Shown here: one piece after another, positions 4,470 through 7,186 of the stretch
How positions within the stretch are numbered: the first letter of the stretch is position 1
Layout: the number at the start of each line of letters is the position of its first letter
From: a virus
Strand: one strand, 5' to 3'
Virus record (IMG/VR): IMGVR_UViG_3300042507_003200
Location: 1-40,262 of that record
DNA length: 40,262 nucleotides
Translations under genes and position numbers: made by a program
The notes under the pieces: model-generated
Databases searched by the model: none
The model's input: only the letters and a program-made list of their open reading frames with translations
What the model was told of the DNA's origin: nothing

Positions 4470-6572
4470 TCAATATTTTGCGCTCTTTTTGCCAGTTTGC
4501 TTCATACCCCAGTCCTCGAGGTGCTTGACTGCAGCTTGCGGAGCTGCCTGCGTCATCCAGAAGTCCAGGTTGCGGACCGCGTAGTAGCGACCCTGGGACC
4601 CATCGGTCAGGCGGATCGGCTTGCCGTTGCAAATCTGGTGGAGTCCAGCCCGGGCCAGCTCGCGGCCCAGGCCATTGGCTGTCGTGCCTGTCTTGCCAGA
4701 CGGATCGTAGAACTGCAGCAGCTCCTTCGAGGTGAACAGCTCCTTGGTGACCTGCACCTCCCCGACCCGCAGCACGTGGTCAGGCGTGGCCATGAGCTGA
4801 CGTACCCAGCCGGCCAGGTCAGACTGCACGTTCGCGATCATGCGCTCCTTGGCAGCAGTCTTGAAGGCCGGGGCAGCCGGGTTGAAGTCGCCGAGGTCGA
4901 GGTGCAGCAGGTAGTGGAACACGGCAGCCGAGCCGCCGGTGTCTAGCCACAGGTCGTAGTTCATGTAGAACTCCTCATCCATCGGACCTACCCGGACCTC
5001 GTGAATGAAGAAGCGGCGGTCATCATCTTCGAGGAAGAATGAATCAGGATGGTTGGCCGTGAAGAAATAGTTGATACAATCCGGCACGACGTATGTGGGC
5101 ACATATTTGCCATTGACCCGGAGCTCCCGCTGCGTGATGAGCTTCTTGAGGAAGTCAGCGTCGGCCCGCTTGTTCGACCCAGTCACGTCGTCGCCCATGA
5201 CGAACTGCTTGCCCTCAGCCCACTCATTGAAGCTGTTGTGCAGATCCATCTGGCTAATCTCGGTGAAGTTCTGCCCGTAGATCCGACCCAGCGTGTAGCC
5301 GATCAGCGACTTGCCCGTGCCGTGCCTGATGCCGTGTAGGACGGACGAGCTGAACAGCTTCGTGCCCGGATGCTGTAAGGGATAGGCACACCAGCGCAGA
5401 AACCACTGCATAGCCTCTGGCTCGGCATTCGTGAAGATGTGCTTGACTAGCTCCAAGAACGGCGACACGTCGTCCTCAGCCGGTTGGACGCCCCAGCCTG
5501 GCCAGATGTTGAACAGGGGACGAGGATCCTGAATGAAGCGCTCAGCGCCTGGCTGGTACGTGAGCTTCGTCACCTCCGTGCGCAGGGGCCACTTCAGCCA
5601 GGCAGCAGCAGCTGAGACCGCCTTGAAGGAGACTGAGCCGTCCTGCTTGAGGCTGCGCTCCTGGTAGTTGAGCGGCGCCTGCAGGTGCTCCTTGAATGCG
5701 CCAGGCGACGCCTTGAACCGAGTGCCTTGGTCCACGATCAGACCCGGGTCCTGCACGTAGACATACTTGTCATTGAGGCTCCAGAGCGGCTTGGTCAGCC
5801 CCAGGGGCTCGGCCTCAGCCAGCAGCTGGCGGAACATCTGGTTGCTCGATGGCCCAGCATGCACGAGGAAGTCGTCCAGCCCGACCTTCTCAAAGCCGTG
5901 CAGCTGCGGCAAGCTGATCAGGTGCACGAATGAGCCGCGCCGATGCAGCTCCTCAGCCAGCTCCCGCAACGCGGCGCAGACCATGGGGTTGGTTTTGTAG
6001 TCAGAGTCGAAGCAGATGTAGACGTTGCGCTTCAGCCACTGGATGGGATCGAGGCTTGGCAGCCAGGTGAGGCCCAGCTTGTGGCTGCGCCAGTTGTACA
6101 CGCCACCCAGCCCAATGGTGGGGAAGCCTTCCTTGCAGGCCTTGGCTGCTTTGAGCTCGCCTTCCGTGAGGATCAGCGGCTGGTTGACGTCGCCGACGAG
6201 GTCGGTCCAGTCTTGGTTGCCTGGGTAGTAGGCGACGGGGGCGGTGTTCGGCTCCTGCACATAGCGGACCTGCTTCTTCTCAGTCATTGCCGAGAAGTCG
6301 GTCGGGGTTTCCAGGTAGCGGAGGCGGTAGAAGGGCTTGGCGCCCGGCCAGTCGGGAAGCGGCTGACCATGATGATCGAGGTAATCGAGACGCAAGCTGC
6401 AGAGCTGCTTGAAGGCGGGGTGGAGACCTGCTGTGCCCTGGGCACCTAAGCACGTCATGCCGAGCTGCTTAGCGTCGTCGAGTGTGAGTCCGGATGTTTT
6501 GAGCTTGGCCTCGCCGAGAGCGAGTGCTTTATGGTCGGCGGTTGGCGCCGTCTTCTTGGTTCGTGTTGCCAA
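4470..6572 (-). CDS. Primase-helicase (TOPRIM-like domain plus SF3-like ATPase)
   Basis: This 700-residue protein probably primes and unwinds DNA at the replication fork. A TOPRIM-like (DUF3854-type) domain shows ILTEGE at 134-139 and CFDSD at 187-191, the acidic metal-binding pattern. The helicase half shows Walker A GIRHGTGKS at 414-422, Walker B FVMGDD near 457-462 and a sensor-like FFTANHPD near 503. The start is TTG 6572 (reads MATRTKK), eight bases after AAGGGG. It is preceded by a 170-base structured leader and the promoter at 6749-6777, so it is the first gene of the leftward arm. Confidence 0.88.
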   Translation of the reverse strand: MATRTKKTAPTADHKALALGEAKLKTSGLTLDDAKQLGMTCLGAQGTAGLHPAFKQLCSLRLDYLDHHGQPLPDWPGAKPFYRLRYLETPTDFSAMTEKKQVRYVQEPNTAPVAYYPGNQDWTDLVGDVNQPLILTEGELKAAKACKEGFPTIGLGGVYNWRSHKLGLTWLPSLDPIQWLKRNVYICFDSDYKTNPMVCAALRELAEELHRRGSFVHLISLPQLHGFEKVGLDDFLVHAGPSSNQMFRQLLAEAEPLGLTKPLWSLNDKYVYVQDPGLIVDQGTRFKASPGAFKEHLQAPLNYQERSLKQDGSVSFKAVSAAAAWLKWPLRTEVTKLTYQPGAERFIQDPRPLFNIWPGWGVQPAEDDVSPFLELVKHIFTNAEPEAMQWFLRWCAYPLQHPGTKLFSSSVLHGIRHGTGKSLIGYTLGRIYGQNFTEISQMDLHNSFNEWAEGKQFVMGDDVTGSNKRADADFLKKLITQRELRVNGKYVPTYVVPDCINYFFTANHPDSFFLEDDDRRFFIHEVRVGPMDEEFYMNYDLWLDTGGSAAVFHYLLHLDLGDFNPAAPAFKTAAKERMIANVQSDLAGWVRQLMATPDHVLRVGEVQVTKELFTSKELLQFYDPSGKTGTTANGLGRELARAGLHQICNGKPIRLTDGSQGRYYAVRNLDFWMTQAAPQAAVKHLEDWGMKQTGKKSAKY

Positions 6573-6743
6573 TTCGGGTTCCCCTTATACTGTCATCTTA
6601 CTTGGCCGCCCTCAGCAGTTGGCCTCTTCTATCTTGCGCTCAGCCGCAAGGAAAGGTGTCCGCCAAGCGCATCACTTGCTGAGGGCGATGACGTGGGACC
6701 CGGCGCTTAACGCGTGAAGGAGACACGACGAGCTTGGCGGACA
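6573..6743 (-). promoter_or_regulatory. Structured 5' leader of the primase-helicase mRNA with crossing stems
   Basis: Two long inverted repeats interleave: 12 bp (6657-6668 with 6732-6743) and 11 bp (6607-6617 with 6677-6687). Their order makes the stems cross, the layout of a pseudoknot. A further 6-bp hairpin lies at 6633-6650. The predicted transcript start (about 6742) falls on the outermost base of the first stem. No known riboswitch class is recognised. The leader may control translation from the weak TTG start. There is no convincing gene inside. Confidence 0.7.
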
Positions 6744-6748
6744 GGAGG

Positions 6749-6777
6749 ATAGTAGTTCGTCTGGACTGCCTTGTAAA
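6749..6777 (-). promoter_or_regulatory. Sigma70-type promoter P2 for primase-helicase
   Basis: The minus strand reads TTTACA (6777-6772), 17 bases, TACTAT (6754-6749). The upstream sequence ACCTGTTTACA is identical to that in P1 and P4. It faces away from the late promoter P5. Confidence 0.8.
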
Positions 6778-6840
6778 CAGGTGGTTAGGACAATCTGTAG
6801 CGGGATGTGGAGTAGCAGATTGGTGAAAAGCTGTTCAGAG

Positions 6841-7060
6841 TCAACAACTTAGCTCACTTTCTTGGCCGCTACGCACTTGGCTCTCCGCTACACGCTACAC
6901 CATTCTCTACTCTCCTTTCTCTCTATATCTATTCTTCTTCTTCTTCTTCTTTAAATAGAAAAGAGAGAATAATAAGTAGTATCTGTAGAACATTATATAA
7001 ATCAACAACTTAGATCGCTACACATTTGCGCTACACAGCTACGCCCGCGCCGTTGTGTAG
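6841..7060. other. Candidate replication origin: iteron-like repeats around an AT-rich tract
   Basis: TCAACAACTTAG occurs at 6841-6852 and 7002-7013. CGCTACAC occurs four times (6886-6893, 6893-6900, 7016-7023, 7029-7036), and an inverted partial copy GTGTAG lies at 7055-7060. Between them, 6901-7000 is AT-rich and strand-biased, with a TTC microsatellite at about 6932-6952. This lies between the two divergent transcription arms and beside the primase-helicase gene, which is typical of phage origins. There is no gene here. Confidence 0.55.
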
Positions 7061-7107: not shown

Positions 7108-7136
7108 TTTACACATGATGGGAATCAGTTTACGAT
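7108..7136 (+). promoter_or_regulatory. Sigma70-type promoter P5 for the late (virion) arm
   Basis: TTTACA (7108-7113), a 17-base spacer and TACGAT (7131-7136) precede the terminase genes. It lacks the TGTTTACA extension of the other promoters, so it may be weaker or differently regulated. Confidence 0.7.
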
Positions 7137-7186
7137 CCACTCCATCGTGAATTTGATTCAGAACTTTTCTTTGTGAGGATGTGGAT

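Follow-up and report, generated by a model that had tools for sequence, protein, structure and literature searches.

The window analysed here is a stretch of 40,262 nt taken from an IMG/VR virus record, and it encodes a P22-like capsid gene. Directly upstream of the primase gene of this virus, two long inverted repeats had been noticed to cross each other, and the question raised by the locus is whether they form a new RNA regulator of replication or a structured element needed at an origin. Both repeats are present as perfect matches of 12 bp (6657-6668/6732-6743) and 11 bp (6607-6617/6677-6687), and they are interleaved. The ORF at 4470-6572 opens, as had been proposed, with a weak TTG start, and at the equivalent site most of the relatives' primases have ATG.

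Structure of the primase leader

From the sigma-70-like promoter to the primase start codon, the minus strand encodes a structured RNA, about 170 nt long, that is conserved. Since the promoter-like sequence ends at 6749, transcription should start at or close to the opening base of the 12-bp repeat, in agreement with the transcript start given in the original prediction. The same layout is common to relatives: in 24 of the 26 leaders checked, the promoter spacer is 17-18 nt and P1 starts 5-8 nt past the -10 box. The features of the locus are listed below in transcript order.

6749-6777, minus strand: sigma-70-like promoter TTTACA-17-TACTAT, +1 predicted at about 6742-6743
6732-6743, minus strand: P1 5' strand UGUCCGCCAAGC, predicted 5' end of the transcript
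6717-6723, minus strand: semi-conserved pyrimidine tract UCUCCUU in the loop 3' of the P1 5' strand, anti-SD-like
6703-6713, minus strand: Pa, a small variable hairpin seen in the sequence
6695-6701, minus strand: P3b 5' strand GGGUCCC, partner 6576-6584 with one bulge
6687-6692, minus strand: P3a 5' strand GUCAUC, partner 6592-6597
6677-6686, minus strand: P2a GCCCUCAGCA, conserved strand complementary to L4 and to P2b
6657-6668, minus strand: P1 3' strand GCUUGGCGGACA, partner of the P1 5' strand
6633-6650, minus strand: P4 hairpin CUUGCG/CGCAAG, with loop L4 (GCUGAG, 6639-6644) complementary to P2a
6604-6624, minus strand: P5 hairpin GGCC/GGCC, with a 13-nt loop holding P2b
6608-6617, minus strand: P2b UGCUGAGGGC, 10 bp with P2a, making a pseudoknot with P1
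6592-6597, minus strand: P3a 3' strand GAUGAC, partner of the P3a 5' strand
6581-6586, minus strand: Shine-Dalgarno (SD)-like AAGGGG
6576-6584, minus strand: P3b 3' strand GGGGAACCC, overlapping the GGGG of the SD
4470-6572, minus strand: primase(-helicase) gene, 700 aa, TTG start, DUF3854 and DUF5906 (Pfam), PHROG 1156 DNA primase

Read along the transcript, the P1 5' strand is followed by a loop containing the pyrimidine tract and the small hairpin, by the 5' strands of P3b and P3a, and by P2a (CCUCAGC); then come AAG, the P1 3' strand, ACCUUU, P4 with L4, P5 with P2b (GCUGAGG), the 3' strands of P3a and P3b, the latter at the SD, and the start codon. P1 thus crosses P2 and P3, and P2 crosses P5. 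The 3' arm of the 11-bp repeat sits inside the loop of hairpin P5, and P3a, P3b, P4 and P5, including the competing loop L4, are additional to the two repeats noticed at the outset.

Nested folding of the minus strand alone gave an unremarkable result (z = -0.45, single sequence), and the plus strand alone scored better (z = -2.25). Neither score was used as evidence, since P1 and P2/P3 cannot coexist in a nested fold; the support for the leader structure is comparative and does not come from single-sequence folding.

The intergenic region upstream of the leader contains further sequence features. A second promoter-like site, TTTACA-17-TACGAT, lies at 7108-7136 in the opposite orientation and faces the gene at 7181, a small ORF preceding the terminase, so that the region between primase and terminase holds divergent promoter-like sites, both with a TTTACA box. 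Between the divergent operons, positions 6787-7060 contain iteron-like repeats (CGCTACAC and TGTAGCG) as well as a direct repeat, TCAACAACTTAGMTCRCT. Similar TGTAGCG repeats recur in relatives, and TGTAGC is over-represented in the window (28 occurrences, 14 expected). The repeats at 6787-7060 are a candidate origin or regulator-binding region.

Conservation and distribution in related phages

Twenty-two viral contigs were found to carry primases 67-92% identical to that of the window, and most of their leaders share the architecture while differing in sequence. Using a pattern scan, two primase-alignment searches, a bacterial-assembly search and phage records, we assembled a set of some 60 leaders, drawn from bacterial assemblies, IMG/VR and three phage records. 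The set includes two cultured members, Stenotrophomonas phage AXL_3 and Pseudoxanthomonas phage PW916, and a metagenomic one, record MW202621. The leaders and upstream flanks of AXL_3 and PW916 (L048 and L049) are near-identical despite their different host genera. In L099 (about 1340-1460) an insertion with long inverted arms (AGCTAAGGTCCTCGGTCCCG ... CGGGACCGAGGACCTTAGCT), resembling a small mobile hairpin, lies between P4 and P5.

Compensatory changes, which covariation analysis of related phages had been expected to reveal if the stems form, were found in the leaders of many relatives. Helices were assigned semi-manually, and pairs were counted helix by helix because the variable 3' region of P3 was not aligned correctly across subgroups by MAFFT. 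Among 18 divergent leaders, none of 20,000 strand-swapping permutations paired as well as the cis strands for P1, P3, P4 and P5, and 3 of 20,000 equalled cis pairing for P3b alone. This permutation test disregards phylogeny, a point answered in part by comparing 10 P1 haplotypes within a group of close relatives (84-98% similarity in the RNA downstream): of 243 differing P1 pair positions, 186 had changed on both sides with pairing kept, 48 had changed on one side with the pair kept through G-U, and 9 were broken. The 56 distinct P1 helices, each of at least 11 bp, comprise 581 Watson-Crick pairs, 23 G-U, 2 A-C and 10 others. Since a G-U pair would read as an A-C mismatch on the opposite strand, this points to selection on the minus-strand (primase-sense) RNA and not on duplex DNA. 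On these sequence comparisons, we consider it nearly certain that the primase leader contains a conserved RNA structure.

A covariance model of the core matched the window at 6604-6684 (minus strand) with E = 1.6e-21, the window being one of its training sequences. Seven loci outside the training set (L113, L082, L085, L081, L100, L090 and L095) matched with E = 1e-10 to 3e-7, and these matches sit immediately upstream of the primases. A plus-strand match in the window (E = 5e-4) was rejected as a reverse-complement echo of the stems that overlaps the true element. Each locus has a single strong copy, which precedes the gene that opens the primase operon; the RNA was seen only 5' of the primase or of a small ORF inserted ahead of it, and the model, run on the loci fetched from the collections listed above, found no copy upstream of an unrelated gene. 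Several loci from a looser pattern scan (L143, L144, L146-148, L152, L153, L157 and L158) fall within apparent coding sequence, had no supporting model score and were set aside; L155 reaches just E = 0.007. At the gathering threshold of Rfam 15 there was no match in the window or in 15 divergent relatives, and relaxed E-values added two irrelevant weak matches only.

In relatives that do not have the RNA, an ORF typically ends directly ahead of the primase; upstream of one such primase (L238, about 1200-1500) there are tandem CCCAAGACCTTAGGCCGAAGAAA repeats. On the primase tree the full, reduced and absent states of the RNA are clustered yet interspersed, requiring 20 changes against a shuffled mean of 32, which indicates that losses, gains or transfers have happened. 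At six loci (L007, L015, L019, L071, L156 and L162) a small ORF directly follows the RNA, ahead of the primase. The inserted ORF of L007 (4514-4996) has a sub-threshold HNH match. That of L015 (2994-3416) gave no endonuclease match and just a sub-threshold DUF1659 hit; it has CxxC-type motifs, and calling it endonuclease-like is an unproven reading of these Cys motifs. The phages with inserted ORFs have RNA variants different from those of their nearest primase relatives. Because L013 and L015 have near-identical primases and different RNAs, the RNA and the inserted ORF may have been swapped as a unit.

Alternative pairings of P2a and the Shine-Dalgarno region

Most leaders have, downstream of P1, two hairpin-loop sites complementary to P2a: L4, as a rule over 6-7 bp, and P2b, as a rule over 7-12 bp. 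The mean duplex energies in 40 leaders are -10.6 kcal/mol for P2a:L4 and -14.9 kcal/mol for P2a:P2b. Because P2a is near-invariant, covariation is visible in exceptions only. Two such exceptions were found: in L226 all three strands have altered together (P2a CUCGGC, L4 GCCGAG, P2b GCCGAG), and so they have in L101 (P2a CUCGGC, L4 CUGCCGA, which forms 7 bp with UCGGCAG, and P2b GCCGAG). On the primase tree L101 and L226 lie in separate clades, each beside CUCAGC lineages, so that two independent three-way changes are implied, which is evidence that both pairings are used. Few as two events are, they indicate that P2a:L4 and P2a:P2b are mutually exclusive pairings that may both operate. L4 is absent or imperfect in nine leaders (L084, L086, L091, L096, L106, L108, L116, L134 and L204). 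L087 (CUAAGC/GCUUAG), once taken as support for the L4 pairing, was dropped, as it has a single site of 11 bp and is a reduced form.

P3b abuts or overlaps the SD, the overlap being partial in some members; examples are L017 (ACUCCAGU/ACUGGAGU), L030 (AUCUCCGGU/ACCGGAGAU) and L015 (CUCCAGU/ACUGGAG). When whole leaders were folded in a plain nested manner, no extra occlusion of the SD was predicted (mean P(unpaired) 0.39, shuffled 0.40). When the strands of P1, a helix of about -30 kcal/mol, were reserved, the mean P(unpaired) of the SD in 50 leaders was 0.32 vs 0.39 in shuffles (Wilcoxon p = 3.5e-4), and values below 0.3 were obtained for 26/50 leaders vs 8/50 shuffles. The occlusion predicted by these models is a modest effect, and under the same conditions none was predicted for L090, L082 and L134. 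The clearest hint of function comes from a minimal relative, L224, which has only P1 and a 12-bp P2; the 3' strand of this P2 is the SD itself, so that P2 would pair with the SD directly.

The explanation that we favour, and regard as likely, is a pseudoknot leader that swaps pairing partners and thereby gates primase translation. The cis-acting RNA would be the entire 5' leader of the primase mRNA and would govern how the first gene of that operon is translated. P1 would form from the first nucleotides of the leader, pairing back across it to create the pseudoknot, and P2a would then pair either with the P4 loop, L4, over about 6 bp, or with P2b in the P5 loop, over 7-12 bp. The P2a:P2b state is expected to run on into P3a and P3b, covering or abutting the SD, and should repress translation; with P2a paired to L4, P3 should be looser and translation favoured. 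The trigger might be the primase itself, some other protein of phage or host, a ligand, temperature or the kinetics of folding. As to its two parts, translational control through the SD is likely, and partner exchange by P2a is somewhat less so.

Alternative explanations and known systems

Four other explanations were weighed. The leader might be a constitutive one that tunes expression or mRNA stability, in which the 5'-terminal P1 blocks 5'-end-dependent decay and the rest is a scaffold that does not switch; P1 begins at the predicted +1 in 24 of the 26 leaders checked, which would place the 5' terminus of the transcript in a duplex. We think this explanation unlikely, since it accounts neither for the fact that P2a has kept its complementarity to two loops, nor for the joint changes of three strands in L101 and L226, nor for the covariation of P3b with the SD strand. 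A riboswitch that senses a metabolite or nucleotide and controls the primase would be a special case of the partner-swapping leader, with a small molecule as the trigger. The large multi-helix RNA, the conserved unpaired AAG after P2a and ACCUUU after P1, the two competing pairings and an expression platform at the SD would suit it, but the RNA was found only 5' of one gene family, with no metabolic gene to hint at a ligand, minimal forms such as L224 offer little space for a pocket, and there is no Rfam riboswitch match; we give it a slightly smaller chance than the stability leader.

The remaining two explanations are much less probable. That the overlapping inverted repeats act as DNA, serving as protein-binding sites in an operator or origin of replication where the primase and terminase operons diverge, draws on the iteron-like CGCTACAC/TGTAGCG repeats and the divergent TTTACA promoters of the intergenic region upstream, and corresponds to the origin element suggested in the original prediction. 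We regard it as very improbable: the irregularities in P1 (23 G-U vs 2 A-C) show a bias expected only for minus-strand RNA, the stem sequences vary freely, the iteron-like repeats fall outside the RNA, part of the structure tracks the SD region, and the RNA keeps the 5' end of the operon even where small ORFs are inserted before the primase. Least probable of all is a self-cleaving ribozyme. The strand order of the leader (P1, P2 5', P1 3', P4, P2 3') resembles the nested double pseudoknot of HDV-like ribozymes, in which a P3 hairpin lies between P2 5' and P1 3', P1 is about 7 bp and cleavage occurs just 5' of P1. In the leader, however, a short linker and no P3-type hairpin separates P2a from P1 3', P1 is longer, and the 5' end is set by a predicted promoter, not by cleavage; with the predicted transcription start at the P1 5' base, nothing would be left to cleave. 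Nor was an HDV-like Rfam match found in the window or the 15 relatives. With respect to the two roles put forward for the repeats, therefore, the pseudoknotted leader is borne out by the compensatory changes, regulation of a replication gene by the partner-swapping leader is the best inference, and a role as an origin element is not supported.

Several known RNAs resemble the partner-swapping leader in part. The S4 / alpha-operon mRNA has a nested pseudoknot at its translation start with two conformers; it belongs to a ribosomal protein operon, unlike the primase leader, which has no Rfam match. In the literature searched, we found only one structured leader RNA belonging to a phage replication gene, the T4 gene 32 pseudoknot. 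The autogenous translational operator of gene 32 in T4 and RB69 consists of a pseudoknot (about 28 nt) and, 3' of it, a UUAAA-rich, weakly structured segment to which, in T4, gp32 binds cooperatively, and in T4 the homing endonuclease gene segG adjoins the operator (PMC535899). In both systems a phage replication gene has a leader whose 5' side, ahead of the SD, contains a pseudoknot; and as segG does in T4, small ORFs (one with a weak HNH match) adjoin the leader RNA in some of our relatives. Unlike the gene 32 operator, the primase leader RNA is about 170 nt long and multi-helix, with competing loops; it is structured up to the SD itself (P3a/P3b) and has no UUAAA repeats.

In the repZ switch of plasmids, a loop and a distant strand close to the SD of the replication gene form a pseudoknot that competes with other pairings, thereby setting translation; the pseudoknot acts as an activator, requires that a leader peptide be translated and is opposed by an antisense RNA. 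Similarly, the pairing alternatives of P2a (L4 and P2b) compete, and the SD lies in or adjoins P3b. No conserved upstream ORF comparable to the repZ leader peptide was obvious by eye in the aligned primase leaders. The repZ/repA pseudoknot switch of IncI-alpha (ColIb-P9), IncB and IncL/M plasmids is among the systems cited in PMC10724649. By analogy, the primase leader would work most like the T4 gene 32 operator and the repZ switch, yet by the features tested it is a member of neither. The STAXI motif consists of tandemly repeated small pseudoknots near genes for DNA-handling proteins (PMC2864571); the primase leader shares this gene context, but is a single large element at the 5' end of an mRNA.

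Our literature searches did not find this RNA described. A term search of the AXL3 genome paper showed that it lists the primase, and turned up nothing on promoters, leaders or RNA structure. For the fold and strand-exchange layout of this cis-acting pseudoknot leader, likewise, we could not find a description. We tentatively propose, at slightly under an even chance, that the leader represents a new phage-specific RNA switch in which one strand is exchanged between two hairpin loops, tying primase synthesis to a signal of the replication state. Such a class would be defined by a multi-pseudoknot fold starting at the first transcribed base, and would range from a minimal two-stem pseudoknot pairing with the SD to the elaborate form of the window. 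Because many phages from the environment have the RNA, and at least two in culture have it too, the proposal is directly testable, and the three related strands that change in step make the strand-exchange mechanism testable as well. Confirmation would reveal how primase production is timed or restricted in these phages, and would provide a further compact example of an RNA switch from nature that is made of pseudoknots.
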